A stretch of DNA of 64,000 nucleotides from a virus. The notes beneath the pieces are model-generated. The model had not been told where the DNA came from. It searched no databases and saw only the letters and a list, made by a program, of their open reading frames with translations. Shown one piece after another: positions 14,275 through 29,411 of the stretch. Both the position numbers and the translations under genes were made by a program. Each line of letters opens with the position of its first letter. Positions within the stretch are counted from its first letter, which is position 1. Location of the stretch: the IMG/VR virus record IMGVR_UViG_3300046002_004363, positions 35,578 to 99,577 of that record. One strand, 5' to 3'.

Positions 14275-15837
14275 ATGGTTATAAAAGAAGTTAAATTTAA
14301 TCAAGAAGCAAAAGAGCCTTTAATTAAAGGTATCTCAACAGTTTGTGATGCAGTTGCTACAACTATGGGATATAGAGGTAGAACAGTATTAATTGAGAGT
14401 CCAGGAGGGCTTCCAATCGTAACAAAGGATGGTGTATCGGTAGCGGAAAGTATTTTCCTTGAAGATGCAACAGAAAGTTTAGGTTGTGAGTTTGTAAAGC
14501 AAGCTTGTAGAAAAACAGTTAATGAAGCAGGTGATGGTACAACTGGCACAGCCGTACTTACAAAGGCTATTATAGACAATAGTCAGAAGTATTTAAAGAA
14601 GGGTGAGTCGGCAATTGATTTAAAGAATGGTATTGACTTTGCTGTAAAGGAAGTTGTTGAGTACATCAAGAGTACATCTAAAGAAGTTGACGATTCGTAC
14701 TTGTTTGATGTGGCAAGAATATCAGCAAACAATGATTCTGAATTAGGGGAGATAATTGCAAAAGCCTTTATATCTGCTGGAAAGAATGGTGTTGTATCTT
14801 ACGAGCAATCAGAAAGTTCAGAAACCTATTTAGACTTTATTGATGGTATGCCAATCGCAAGAGGGTATGAATTTGAGGGGTTTGTAAATAAACCAGAAAA
14901 TAGATCAATCGAATTCAATAATAACCCCCTTATCTTACTATCAAACAGAAGATTTCAGAACATTACAGAATTACTACCTGTTATAGAGTTTTGTCACCAC
15001 GCAAAGAAAGAGCTACTTATCATCTCTGAAATGGAGTTTGAGGTTATGAAGGTTTTGTATGCTAATAAAAAGAATGGTCTTAAGGTAGCTACTATTATAC
15101 CGCCAAGTATAGGAGAGAAGCGTAGAGATTATTTAACAGATATTTCTTTAGCAACAGGTGGTTTAATTATTGATTTAGACACCTCTACAAATATTGAAGG
15201 GTATGATATGAATGAACTACTTGGTAAATGTAGTCGATTGACTGTAACTAAAGATGACACTGTATTATTCTTTAATGAAAAACCTAATGCAGATAGGGTT
15301 CAATCAAAGATTGAAGAGTTAAATAAAGTAATCAAGAACTCAAACAATAATTTAGAAAAGGAATACCTGAGAGACCGTATATCAAAATTAGCTTGTGGTG
15401 TTTCTGTAATTAAGGTTGGAGGAACAACTGAGGTAGAGATTAAGGAGAAGATTGATAGGGTTGACGATGCAATTAATGCAGTTAAGAGTGCAATAGCTGA
15501 AGGTGTGGTTGTAGGAGGTGGTTTAGCGCTATATAACGCCTCTTTAAAGCTTGTTCCTGTATCGAAAGGATATAAGTGTCTTCTTGAGTCAATTCAAGCT
15601 CCTATTCGCACTATTTTAAGTAATGCAGGTATTAAGTTAGATTCAATTGAAATGAACTTACTAACATATCAAGATAACTATGGATACGATGTTAAGGATT
15701 ACGAAATTGTAGATATGTTTGAGAAAGGAATTATAGATCCTTCAAAGGTAATTAGATTAGCCTTAGAGAATGCTGCAAGTGTAGCTACAACAGTTTTATT
15801 AACCAATACGACAATAACACATAAAAGAAGTAACTAA
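14275..15837 (+). CDS. groEL: Phage-encoded chaperonin GroEL
   Basis: A 520-residue group I chaperonin. Nucleotide-site residues keep the numbering of Escherichia coli GroEL: Asp52 in VTKDGVS, Asp87 in GDGTTGTAV and Asp398 in RVDDAINAV, and the equatorial AEGVVVGGGLALYNA segment follows. The ATPase should therefore be active. It is about 28 residues shorter than GroEL and lacks the C-terminal GGM-repeat tail. The phage capsid or giant virion protein may be the client. It is translated with the downstream GroES-like gene, whose ATG overlaps its stop (TAATG). It stands alone on the plus strand between minus-strand structural operons, and is terminated by the hairpin at 16131. Confidence 0.95.
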   Translation: MVIKEVKFNQEAKEPLIKGISTVCDAVATTMGYRGRTVLIESPGGLPIVTKDGVSVAESIFLEDATESLGCEFVKQACRKTVNEAGDGTTGTAVLTKAIIDNSQKYLKKGESAIDLKNGIDFAVKEVVEYIKSTSKEVDDSYLFDVARISANNDSELGEIIAKAFISAGKNGVVSYEQSESSETYLDFIDGMPIARGYEFEGFVNKPENRSIEFNNNPLILLSNRRFQNITELLPVIEFCHHAKKELLIISEMEFEVMKVLYANKKNGLKVATIIPPSIGEKRRDYLTDISLATGGLIIDLDTSTNIEGYDMNELLGKCSRLTVTKDDTVLFFNEKPNADRVQSKIEELNKVIKNSNNNLEKEYLRDRISKLACGVSVIKVGGTTEVEIKEKIDRVDDAINAVKSAIAEGVVVGGGLALYNASLKLVPVSKGYKCLLESIQAPIRTILSNAGIKLDSIEMNLLTYQDNYGYDVKDYEIVDMFEKGIIDPSKVIRLALENAASVATTVLLTNTTITHKRSN

Positions 15838-26963: not shown

Positions 26964-27131
26964 ATGAATAAGGTAGAAATTATTGCAGAATTAGATAAAC
27001 TAATGTATATTGCAGAACAATTAGAGAATACTTTTTTAGTTGGTAGACTTGAGGCAATAAAGCAATCACTTATAAAGGATTGGAATGAGAGTGATGCTTA
27101 CTATAAAATTATAAGTAATCAATTGAAATAA
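26964..27131 (+). CDS. Small helical protein at the left edge of the cassette array
   Basis: A 55-residue helical protein (AELDKLMYIAEQLENTFLVG). Its TAA stop lies inside the R'' box of the first attC-like site, so the gene ends exactly where the cassette array begins. Confidence 0.5.
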   Translation: MNKVEIIAELDKLMYIAEQLENTFLVGRLEAIKQSLIKDWNESDAYYKIISNQLK

Positions 27132-27249
27132 CGGTTCTCGGCTTGGCGAAGTTGCAGAATGTTGAAATTAAACACTAAATATTACAGATTATGACTAAAC
27201 ATTCAGAAAATACCAAAAGTAGCAATAGCACAAAACCTGTGTTACAATC
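27125..27249 (+). repeat. attC-like site 1
   Basis: R'' box GAAATAAC (27125-27132); left arm GGCTTGGCGAAGTTGC (27140-27155); right arm GCAATAGCACAAAACC (27222-27237); R' box GTTACAATC (27241-27249). The arms pair at 11 of 16 positions, the weakest of the four sites, as expected if the left flank was exchanged. The loop contains ATG 27191, the start of the cassette A gene. Confidence 0.65.
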
Positions 27250-27463
27250 AGTTTTTTTTGACTTTGATTATTGGAATAAATGCAATGCTTTATGGAATGT
27301 TTCTCCGCATCATTCTTTTGAAAATTTAGTAGTCATTGAATATGTTGGAACAAGTAAAATGAGAATTTCTATTTGTGTTGAAAAAAATGAATTTGAATTA
27401 GGTTTAAATAGATTTTGGAGTGAGTTCAAACGTCAAAGTGAAAATAATGCGTTACGTAATTAA
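27191..27463 (+). CDS. Cassette A protein with attC-encoded N-terminus
   Basis: A 90-residue protein. Its first 17 residues, MTKHSENTKSSNSTKPV, are encoded by the attC-like site, and the cassette body starts at about residue 18. The rest (DFDYWNKCNALWNVSPHHSF; ISICVEKNEFELGLNRFW) belongs to no family I recognise. Unlike usual cassettes there is no in-frame ATG near the cassette start, so use of the attC ATG seems needed. The same N-terminus precedes the YopX-like gene at 28716. Confidence 0.6.
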   Translation: MTKHSENTKSSNSTKPVLQSVFFDFDYWNKCNALWNVSPHHSFENLVVIEYVGTSKMRISICVEKNEFELGLNRFWSEFKRQSENNALRN

Positions 27464-27467
27464 AATT

Positions 27468-27603
27468 GATTGTAACGTATGTGGCTTTAAGCAGTTGCCA
27501 ATAAAACTGCCTTAACTTTTGATTTAAAACTAATGATTACAGATACAAAACAACCTTTAAATTTAGCCGAAAGTGGCAATTGCTTAAAGCCGCTGTTACA
27601 AGC
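27468..27603 (+). repeat. attC-like site 2
   Basis: R'' GATTGTAAC (27468-27476); left arm GGCTTTAAGCAGTTGCC (27483-27499); right arm GGCAATTGCTTAAAGCC (27575-27591); R' GTTACAAGC (27595-27603). Arms pair at 16 of 17 positions plus one G-T. The spacers beside the R boxes are of unequal length (6 and 3 bases), a usual attC feature. The loop carries ATG 27533. Confidence 0.8.
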
Positions 27604-27985
27604 AGTGTTTTTAGTTCCTTATGTTCCGTATTATTTACGAATATTTGAACCAATTTACAACGAAAAATATACACTTGTTGGAATTATTGAAAATGAACTT
27701 TATTGCAAAGAAACTGAAATAGATGATTGTTTCTCTTTTGAAATAGACGAAAATACATTTCCAATATTAAGACCGTTGTCTGATTTTTACGATATAAATG
27801 CACCCGCATTTATTGATACAAATTTTGATATTCCAACACAATTAGTTTTGGTTGATTTATGCTCTAAAAAACAACATTATTCAAGCGTAAGATATTCAGA
27901 TATGCAAGAGTTTTTACGTGAACATATTGACATTTTCAATCTTATTGAACAAGATTTAGCCGTTTCAATCCACGATGTTGTGTAA
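27533..27985 (+). CDS. Cassette B protein with attC-encoded N-terminus
   Basis: A 150-residue acidic soluble protein. The first about 21 residues (MITDTKQPLNLAESGNCLKP then L) come from the attC-like site; the pattern GNCLKPLLQ parallels SNSTKPVLQ of cassette A. The body (YNEKYTLVGIIENELYCKET; IPTQLVLVDLCSKKQHYSSV) has no family I recognise. It stops 4 bases before the next R'' box. Confidence 0.6.
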   Translation: MITDTKQPLNLAESGNCLKPLLQAVFLVPYVPYYLRIFEPIYNEKYTLVGIIENELYCKETEIDDCFSFEIDENTFPILRPLSDFYDINAPAFIDTNFDIPTQLVLVDLCSKKQHYSSVRYSDMQEFLREHIDIFNLIEQDLAVSIHDVV

Positions 27986-27989
27986 CATT

Positions 27990-28110
27990 GCTTATAACGT
28001 TCCCACGCTTGGCATCAGTTGCCTAACGGAATAATCAAATGAATTAATAAAAAACAATAATGTCAAACGAAACACTAATAGGCGATTGTGCCAAACGTGT
28101 GTTAAAAAAC
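27990..28110 (+). repeat. attC-like site 3
   Basis: R'' GCTTATAAC (27990-27998); left arm CACGCTTGGCATCAGTTGCC (28004-28023); right arm GGCGATTGTGCCAAACGTG (28081-28099); R' GTTAAAAAAC (28101-28110). Eighteen of 19 positions pair when T28015 is left extrahelical. The loop holds a short leader frame from 28060. Confidence 0.8.
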
Positions 28111-28122
28111 GTATTAAAATGA
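28060..28122 (+). CDS. attC leader peptide coupled to cassette C gene
   Basis: A 20-residue frame, MSNETLIGDCAKRVLKNVLK, starts in the loop of attC-like site 3 and crosses the R' box. Its stop overlaps the start of the 75-residue gene as ATGA. GDCAKRVL parallels SNSTKPVL and GNCLKPLL of the other sites. Because the cassette gene is not in this frame, it would be translated by reinitiation. Confidence 0.5.
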   Translation: MSNETLIGDCAKRVLKNVLK

Positions 28123-28346
28123 AACAACAAACAGCAGTAGAATGGTTAGAAGAACAATTATTTGGTTCATTAGGAATTGAATTAACAGAACATCAATCAA
28201 AAATGGCTAATGAAATATTCTTTAAACAAGCCAAAGAAATGTTTGAAAGTCAAATTATTAATGCACATACATCAGGGCAATTAGAAAATGATTTACTACC
28301 AAACGAAAAAGCACAACAATATTATAAGCAAACTTTTAAAAAATAA
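28119..28346 (+). CDS. Cassette C protein 1, TAVEWL family
   Basis: A 75-residue protein starting MKQQTAVEWLEEQLFGSLGI with a later KQAKEMFESQIINAH and a terminal YYKQTFKK. It is a homologue of the phage-backbone proteins at 38866 and 39131. Starts further upstream (TTG 28086) are less likely because the leader frame covers them. The family is frequent in flavobacterial phages; function unknown. Confidence 0.65.
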   Translation: MKQQTAVEWLEEQLFGSLGIELTEHQSKMANEIFFKQAKEMFESQIINAHTSGQLENDLLPNEKAQQYYKQTFKK

Positions 28347-28351
28347 AAATT

Positions 28352-28630
28352 ATGATTTTTAAATTAATTTTTGAGGACAAACAAGAATATGCACAAGCTA
28401 AATCACAACTTCATTTATTACAAAAATGGAATAAAGAATATGATGATTTTGAAGATATTTTAGAGGTAATTGAAATATCAGAAGAAGAAGCAAAAATAAT
28501 TATGCTTTCAAACAATGAGTATGACCCTGAATTGCCAATTGACGATGAATTTAATTACCCTGAATTTTCATTATATGATACCGTTGTAGGCGATGATTTC
28601 GTAGTAGTTGGTTCAACGGAATGGGATTAA
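28352..28630 (+). CDS. Cassette C protein 2
   Basis: A 92-residue acidic protein (MIFKLIFEDKQEYAQAKSQL start; EVIEISEEEAKIIMLSNNEY). It follows its partner by 5 bases, making cassette C a two-gene cassette. The stop is 3 bases before the next R'' box. Unknown function. Confidence 0.6.
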   Translation: MIFKLIFEDKQEYAQAKSQLHLLQKWNKEYDDFEDILEVIEISEEEAKIIMLSNNEYDPELPIDDEFNYPEFSLYDTVVGDDFVVVGSTEWD

Positions 28631-28633
28631 TAT

Positions 28634-28774
28634 GTTTTTTAACGTTATCAGGCTTTGTGTCTGTTGCGACCAAAAATAAAACAAATTTTAATTTAAACAC
28701 TAAAAATTACAGATTATGATTAAACATTCAGAAAACACCGAGCCAAGCAATAGCACAAAACCTGTGTTAGCAAA
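28634..28774 (+). repeat. attC-like site 4
   Basis: R'' GTTTTTTAAC (28634-28643); left arm GGCTTTGTGTCTGTTGC (28651-28667); right arm GCAATAGCACAAAACC (28747-28762); R' GTTAGCAAA (28766-28774). Fifteen of 16 positions pair when T28660 is extrahelical. The right arm is identical to that of site 1. The loop contains ATG 28716. Confidence 0.8.
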
Positions 28775-29144
28775 TCGTATTTTTAAACTTCGTGCTTGGG
28801 TTAGAAATGAATTAATGGTTAATGTCGTAAGTATAGATTTCAATAATGAATTTATAACTTGGGACGACAATCAATACGATAGATGTGTTCCTCCAAATAA
28901 ATGCTATGAAATTGAAACTTTTGATGATATTGTTTTAATGCAATTTACAAATTTTAAAGATAAAAAAGGAATTGACATTTATGAAGGAGATAAAATAAAA
29001 TACAAAAATTTCAAAGGTTATTCAACAATTGTTTTTGAAAACGGTGCTTTTGGTTATTACGGAATTTCTTGTTTTATTACTCTTTTAGAAACAAATGCAG
29101 AACATATAGAAGTTATTGGAAACGTCTTTCAGTATTCTGAATAA
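28716..29144 (+). CDS. Cassette D protein, YopX family, with attC-encoded N-terminus
   Basis: A 142-residue protein. Residues 21 onward (RIFKLRAWVRNELMVNVVSI; FTNFKDKKGIDIYEGDKIKY; HIEVIGNVFQYSE) match the YopX domain found in many phages, whose own start is usually the ...FRAW motif. The first 18 residues, MIKHSENTEPSNSTKPVL, are supplied by the attC-like site and are nearly identical to those of cassette A. YopX proteins are of unknown function. It stops 4 bases before the last R'' box. Confidence 0.75.
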   Translation: MIKHSENTEPSNSTKPVLANRIFKLRAWVRNELMVNVVSIDFNNEFITWDDNQYDRCVPPNKCYEIETFDDIVLMQFTNFKDKKGIDIYEGDKIKYKNFKGYSTIVFENGAFGYYGISCFITLLETNAEHIEVIGNVFQYSE

Positions 29145-29148
29145 TATG

Positions 29149-29157
29149 TTTGCTAAC
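29149..29157 (+). repeat. attC remnant (R'' box) at the right end of the array
   Basis: TTTGCTAAC is the exact reverse complement of GTTAGCAAA at the start of cassette D. No GGCTT-type arm follows, so the site is cut off at the array edge. Confidence 0.6.
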
Positions 29158-29210
29158 TACAACATTACATCATAAAAAATATTATTTTCTATTATTAACA
29201 CTTATAAACA

Positions 29211-29411
29211 ATGGAAATTTATACAGAAGTACATAGCTTTACTTTAACGAAAGAACAAAAGAAAATCTTAACCGATTTAAAGGCAAACAAAGTGAATGTT
29301 TCAAAGTTAATAAGAGAAATACTATTTAAGGAATTAACGTCAAAAGTTGACAAAAGAAAGAAACCAACAATTGACGATTTAAAAAATAGTTTAGATAACG
29401 TGTTTATTTAA
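29211..29411 (+). CDS. Ribbon-helix-helix-like small protein
   Basis: A 66-residue basic protein: a strand (EVHSFTLTKEQ), then helices (KKILTDLKANKVNVSKLIRE), the order of a CopG/Arc-type DNA-binding protein, and a helical tail. It could repress a nearby early promoter. Inferred from pattern only. Confidence 0.5.
   Translation: MEIYTEVHSFTLTKEQKKILTDLKANKVNVSKLIREILFKELTSKVDKRKKPTIDDLKNSLDNVFI

Follow-up and report, generated by a model that had tools for sequence, protein, structure and literature searches.

The DNA examined here, hereafter the window, is a stretch of 64,000 nucleotides comprising positions 35578-99577 of the 99,577-base IMG/VR virus record IMGVR_UViG_3300046002_004363. The piece of interest (positions 26,964-29,157) holds an integron-like array of four cassettes, each composed of an attC-like site, which runs from TAAC at its R'' box to GTTA at its R' box, and of the gene or genes that follow. 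A preliminary description, made from the letters alone, had reported four such sites, four cassettes with all genes in one orientation and no integrase in view. These observations were borne out: the sites (w1 to w4) extend over 27129-28769 and the cassettes over 27133-29157, and no integrase is encoded in the whole record. The interval proposed for the array (27125-29157) is correct for the sites and the cassettes and too short at the far end, where an end site (29154-29210) reaches beyond it.

All features of the array are on the plus strand. On the left, the flanking gene encodes 55 amino acids of unknown function (26964-27131), and its stop codon TAA, together with the following C (27129-27132), forms the left TAAC boundary. 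Cassette 1 (27133-27476) includes site w1 (27129-27244; repeat D1) and a gene for a 90-amino-acid protein of unknown function (27191-27463). Cassette 2 (27477-27998) includes site w2 (27473-27598) and a gene for 150 amino acids (27533-27985), assigned to PHROG 10841, a family of unknown function. In cassette 3 (27999-28643), site w3 (27995-28104) is followed by a leader open reading frame (ORF) of 20 codons (28060-28122) and by two genes of unknown function, encoding 75 (28119-28346) and 92 amino acids (28352-28630). Cassette 4 (28644-29157) carries site w4 (28640-28769) and a gene for a 142-amino-acid protein of the YopX family (PF09643; 28716-29144). The array terminates at TAAC|TACAACATTACATCATAAAAAATATTATTTTC..., 53 bases before a gene for 66 amino acids (29211-29411), which is of unknown function and has no Pfam match.

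The two ends of each cassette are complementary, as the preliminary description had noticed. The end pairs of the window are GTTACAATCAGT/GTTACAATCAAT (11 of 12 bases), GTTACAAGCAGT/GTTATAAGCAAT (10 of 12), GTTAAAAAACGT/GTTAAAAAACAT (11 of 12) and GTTAGCAAATCG/GTTAGCAAACAT (9 of 12) for cassettes 1 to 4, respectively. The chance that such a pair agrees in at least six of its eight variable bases is 0.008, and in at least seven 0.0009. Over 188 cassettes of related arrays, the mean match was 5.97 of 8 variable bases, whereas ends paired at random averaged 2.58 and the boxes of a single linear site 2.56; at least six of the eight matched in 148 of the 188 cassettes, against 2.2 percent by chance. 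The complementarity that a circle needs is found both in the window and in this larger set, and on these sequences the matching ends are read as the signature of circular cassettes. The same complementarity had been regarded earlier as the decisive point. It does speak for circular cassettes, but it fits a crossover at R' and at R'' equally and therefore cannot show which box is cut. The 11th base of R' (e.g., window position 27251) is G in 171 of 210 sites, where the complement of R'', although matching elsewhere, usually has A; this mismatch close to the ends of the cassettes is thus conserved.

The attC-like sites were recognized by covariance models; a simple script for paired arms proved too noisy in AT-rich DNA and was replaced by them. 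The first model (R1) was trained on seven sites (w3, w4, and five from other phages) and recovered w1 (76 bits, E 2e-15) and w2 (62 bits, E 8e-12), both outside the training set. With a wider model (R2), all four sites were found at E values of 1e-14 to 1e-23 (w1 with 86, w3 with 78, and w4 with 123.5 bits), and the only further match in the window was at chance level (18 bits, E 0.47). As a control, R1 was run on 77 unrelated phage loci (692 kb) that had been picked for a different gene, and one match of borderline score resulted. No Rfam family matched the sites of the window. For an array, at least two alike attC-like sites in the same orientation within a few kb were sought, and the window has four.

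The hairpins differ in quality. Site w1 is the weakest, folding poorly in its linear form with about 10 of 16 arm positions paired; its right half is like that of w4 and its left half is unlike it. The linear fold of w2 reaches -25.2 kcal/mol for the top and -18.4 kcal/mol for the bottom strand. For sites 1, 3, and 4, the hairpin of the circle form is more stable than that of the linear site. The extrahelical base announced for sites 3 and 4 is present, w3 and w4 having one extra base each in the left arm (a T in w4). Among 210 sites, the extra base lies in the left arm in 85, in the right arm in 14 and in neither in 111; the arm next to R'' is also its place in classical integrons. GTTA is found at R' in 203 of 210 sites, and the classical R' consensus GTTRRRY fits only 13 of the 210, none of them in the window.

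Sites of this kind are found in many phages of Bacteroidota. The right half of w4 is present in 18 viral contigs and also in siphophages cultured on Flavobacterium LMO6/LMO9 (lillamy, mumin, hattifnatt, filifjonk, and others), with near-identical copies of w4 standing before other genes in the lillamy and mumin phages. The covariance model found up to 15 sites in a single cultured Flavobacterium phage. The assumption that phage-borne cassette clusters are uncommon was not upheld: Flavobacterium phages commonly carry such arrays, and integrase-less examples from phages had already been described (PMC9892861). The exact right-arm pattern is absent from 84,980 bacterial species, versus the 18 viral contigs that have it. 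The notion that the sites are restricted to phages was dropped, as 16 of the 20 Flavobacteriaceae genomes examined with the covariance model contain related sites; in 11 genomes from outside Bacteroidota there were none.

The slot that holds the array varies among relatives. The left flank is common to them exactly up to TAAC; contig L003, for instance, has the same layout (TTGAAATAAC|GTTTTGC) and carries two other cassettes, one of which encodes an N6 DNA methyltransferase. One cassette occupies the slot in L001, the other part of the window's own record. The cultured elemoA phages have no cassettes in it but a gene with an Acb2/Tad1 hairpin (PF24729, a counter-defence family), and in one of them (L083), which has no attC, the left flank lacks the C (TTGAAATAAAG). 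This gene (L083:3766-4047) matches a family of proteins that soak up bacterial immune signals. The elemoA slot was considered as an empty site and rejected, because it is filled by an unrelated gene, so that no clean empty site was obtained for the window's array.

The expectation that related phages would differ by whole cassettes was confirmed. The lillamy genome equals that of mumin minus one cassette of 476 bp, with 613 of 613 bases identical across the joint and both breakpoints at TAAC|G. The cassette orders among the isolates (ABCDE, AFDG, HABDGJK, HABCDG, and others) are read as gains and losses of complete cassettes. Of 38 homologous gene pairs that are not clonal, nearly all kept the preceding attC, with an attC identity of 0.89-1.0. 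In pairs that retained just one of the two neighboring attC sites, this was always the site in front, and the site behind was at the random level; not a single pair of the 38 kept the following attC while the preceding one changed. At least three independent pairs agree on the unit (L095/L252, L100/L104, and L181/L183). From these comparisons, the moving unit is taken to be an attC with the gene after it, and the breakpoints of complete-cassette exchanges to be TAAC|G of R''. The preliminary description had placed them at G|TT of R'; the classical unit, i.e., a gene with its following attC and G|TT breakpoints, was seen neither in the gene pairs nor in the lillamy/mumin deletion. The idea that each exchange shuffles protein halves through the in-frame R' was abandoned, as a unit of attC plus following gene keeps the frame whole; it may occur as a rarer event, given 31 pairs that have similar attC sites and unrelated genes. 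Examples in which an identical or near-identical attC has unrelated genes to its right are L106, L237, and L107, and they suggest that R' is sometimes a breakpoint.

The gene comparisons and the deletion at TAAC|G both weaken the reading in which the window contains ordinary integron cassettes and a classical IntI, supplied in trans by the host or another phage, cuts them at G|TT of R'. No IntI was found in the record or in 26 related records, and none scored above the cut-off in 300 Flavobacteriaceae genomes, where no positive control rang. The earlier proposal of a host IntI in trans was not supported, given this result and the presence of a different, Xer/IntI-like recombinase beside attC arrays of other phages. 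The low number of GTTRRRY boxes is also against an ordinary integron, as is the fact that the arrays end in R'' and an attI-like sequence with no terminal attC, where a canonical array would end with attC. The architecture of the sites, the orientation of the genes and the extra base of the left arm are in its favor, and IntI1 can use phage attC sites in Escherichia coli (Qi et al. 2023, PMC9892861). Overall, this explanation seems improbable.

The candidate recombinase is a protein of 270-290 amino acids, similar to Xer and IntI and devoid of the IntI insertion, located beside many such arrays. In two phage contigs with attC sites of the window type, a tyrosine recombinase of 267 or 277 amino acids lies directly after the array on the same strand. 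It matches the models of XerA, XerC/D, and the integron integrase, in every case below the cut-off, and it aligns to IntI in two pieces that skip approximately profile positions 180-244. Residues R133, K158, H222, R225, H248, and Y257 are invariant in 20 relatives; the catalytic set is intact, and the enzyme is not encoded in the window. The predicted structure (predicted local distance difference test score, pLDDT, 88.7) has XerA and the integron integrase 2a3v as its nearest folds, the longer alignment with 2a3v being due to the lack of the IntI insertion in the recombinase.

Among 79 recombinase loci on viral contigs, the model places attC sites upstream, in the same orientation as the gene, at 31. 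At 53 of the 79, a constant sequence, TAAC|TAYTATATRTA..., is located 43-67 bp before the recombinase start. To the left of TAAC the sequence is variable and ends as a cassette end does. A constant right side combined with a variable, cassette-like left side is the behavior of an attI site, at which cassettes would enter at TAAC|T. From its position, this recombinase is the likely enzyme of cassette exchange.

The end site of the window is of another type, and the attI motif of the recombinase loci is absent from the window (score -17.5). The sequence right of TAAC also stands before all 11 viral relatives of the 66-amino-acid gene, the cassette end to its left differing from one relative to the next, and R2 sites are found upstream in all seven of these relatives that were scanned. 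Siphophages otherwise unrelated to the window phage are among these relatives. We infer that the site is a solo attI, for which the recombinase must come from elsewhere. At the right ends of L001, L003, and L092 there is a further candidate end site, TAAC|TAYTYGATTGACG, with no recombinase.

In two flavobacterial chromosomes, a relative of the recombinase (272-282 amino acids) lies within 3 kb of related attC sites on the same strand. One phage recombinase is encoded at L098:7598-8431 (minus strand) and a chromosomal one at L311:15556-16371. The chromosomal genes run opposite to those of the phages (17 of 17 in arrays and, where a gene could be called, 23 of 23 at single sites); at the latter, the stop codon commonly lies 7-16 bases from R'. 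Phage genes run with the site in 181 of 182 cases. Judged by these orientations, the chromosomal form, read on the opposite strand, is built like a textbook integron, and it is in the phage form that the genes are inverted. Within a cassette array of a flavobacterial chromosome (L311:13048-14085), there is a gene for a protein with the reverse-transcriptase motif YADD.

In cassettes 1, 2, and 4, the start codon is within the attC and the ORF reads through GTTA into the gene; in cassette 1 the in-frame leader is MTKHSENTKSSNSTKPVL. The leader ORF of cassette 3 also starts within its attC, and its TGA overlaps the ATG of the next ORF (28119), which suggests translational coupling. In this way, the attC would provide three of the window's genes with a start codon and a leader by direct fusion, and the fourth cassette with coupling.

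The cargo of the phage arrays is accessory. Most of 137 cassette proteins belong to no family, about 16 match DNA methyltransferases and two are YopX proteins; the filifjonk array contains five methyltransferase genes. Isolates that lack a methyltransferase present in others plate a thousand- to ten-thousand-fold lower on LMO6 (Nilsson et al. 2020, PMC7077304), in a study that makes no mention of integrons or cassettes. Since the cargo is accessory and often consists of DNA methyltransferases, the array is probably an exchangeable store of anti-restriction and counter-defence genes. This is the most likely role of the array, deduced from the cargo of related arrays and not from the window's own genes.

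Most probably, the window carries four circularisable cassettes that belong to an integron-like system found in Bacteroidota and in the phages that infect them, and on which a recombinase likely acts in trans. Each cassette would consist of an attC-type hairpin and a gene and end in an R'' box whose reverse complement is the R' box of the cassette's own attC. Cutting and joining would take place at TAAC|G (G|TTA when read on the opposite strand), and cassettes would be taken up at the attI-like TAAC|TA... of the downstream array end. The Xer/IntI-like recombinase, encoded beside the attI-like site in many related phages and some flavobacterial chromosomes, may serve the window phage, which itself has just the solo attI-like end site and the 66-amino-acid gene. 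The sites, the matching ends, the layout, the gain and loss of whole cassettes, the attI-like sites and the adjacent recombinase are read directly from the DNA, and from them we infer the agent, the strand used, the action in trans and the anti-defence role. Such a mechanism is likely, as a variant of the integron kind. With less confidence, though still on the favorable side, a distinct integron class of Bacteroidota and phages is proposed. It would have an Xer-type recombinase without the IntI domain, an attI of its own, and, in phages, inverted genes preceded by an attC that carries the start codon and travels along. Phages without the recombinase would retain a solo attI and depend on the recombinase of others, sharing a pool of counter-defence cassettes.

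Several observations weigh against the main reading, that of an integron-like system with cuts at TAAC|G. In classical attC sites, a left-arm extra base would point to R' and not R'' as the box that is cut, and the 31 pairs with similar attC sites and unrelated genes on the right indicate that R' breakpoints also occur. The model found no attC at 48 of the 79 recombinase loci, the recombinase and attC were within 3 kb of each other in two flavobacterial chromosomes only, and the link of the enzyme to cassette exchange is one of adjacency. Many of the compared phages are closely related and not independent, so the independent events are fewer.

Phage mosaicism through homologous recombination, in a phage that carries an Erf-type annealing protein, would make the hairpins passive conserved linkers between accessory genes. 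It predicts neither the match of each cassette's own ends, which is absent between the boxes of one linear site, nor the precise insertion at attI-like sites that a recombinase gene adjoins. Erf genes do exist in these phages, the attC sites are similar enough to recombine, w1 resembles a hybrid of two sites, and isolated attC sites are shared with different genes on both sides; even so, mosaicism is given as little credence as an ordinary integron. That the hairpins are expression elements for translation start or termination, selected for RNA structure and without site-specific recombination today, is hardly credible, given the end matching across cassettes, the whole-cassette gain and loss, the adjacent recombinase and the 104 of 181 phage-array genes that start after the site, although 77 of the 181 start within their own attC, often with a conserved leader peptide (...NSTKP[VM]L).

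The window phage is akin to cultured Flavobacterium phages of the genus Elemovirus (host Flavobacterium sp. BAL314, Baltic Sea) and encodes a portal protein, a terminase, Erf, an exonuclease, and GroEL. The GroEL-type chaperonin is located at 14275-15837 of the window. The first 35 kb of the whole record (G000, 99,577 bases) are colinear with its last 35 kb, 61 kb apart and 73-96% identical. The record is therefore probably a chimeric assembly of two related Elemovirus-like genomes.

Integrons have been reported as very rare or almost absent in Bacteroidetes (IntegronFinder 2.0, PMC9024848). No description of the recombinase, the attI, or the polarity was found in open PMC papers, preprints and most subscription papers being outside the search. 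Phage arrays without integrase previously had no known enzyme. If the proposal is true, a common system of cassette exchange in phages of aquatic Bacteroidota has been overlooked because its recombinase is unlike IntI and the polarity of its cassettes is reversed. In published data, how well the cultured phages plate correlates with whether one methyltransferase is present (PMC7077304). The system would let phages gain or lose whole genes such as DNA-protecting methylases. Cultured phage-host pairs allow cassette exchange and its effect on the escape from restriction to be tested.

XerA/XerC-like recombinases resolve chromosome dimers at a fixed site, and we know of none that moves cassettes. 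They are the nearest to the candidate enzyme in sequence and fold (4a8e, 5hxy; NCBIfam NF040815).

The integrase-less attC arrays (CALINs) of Qi et al. (2023, PMC9892861), e.g., in Polaribacter phage P12002L, PH101, and TJE1, are similar in that virulent phages with no integrase carry attC-like sites and cassettes, methyltransferases being part of the cargo there too. In contrast, the main text of that paper includes no Flavobacterium phage, such phage attI, Xer-type recombinase, or inverted unit. P12002L was considered as the same system and ruled out, as it does not match the attC model used here. In attI1, ORF-11 and, in attC sites, short ORFs (PMC8876359) likewise let a recombination site give cassette genes a translation start or coupling; here, however, the ORF runs from the attC through R' into the gene or stops on the next start.

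In the reverse integron of Treponema denticola (PMC7691350), the integrase is turned round and is upstream of the cassettes. Integrase and cassette genes have one direction in both systems, but in the present one it is the cassette genes that are turned round, and the recombinase is downstream of the array. Classical integrons share with it a tyrosine recombinase with an attI (here an attI-like site) by its start, a cassette array with matching circular ends, and genes of a single direction. They differ in their integrase, as the recombinase described here lacks the IntI insertion and scores below the IntI cut-off, and in their unit, which in these phages is an attC with the gene that follows it, the genes pointing towards the recombinase.

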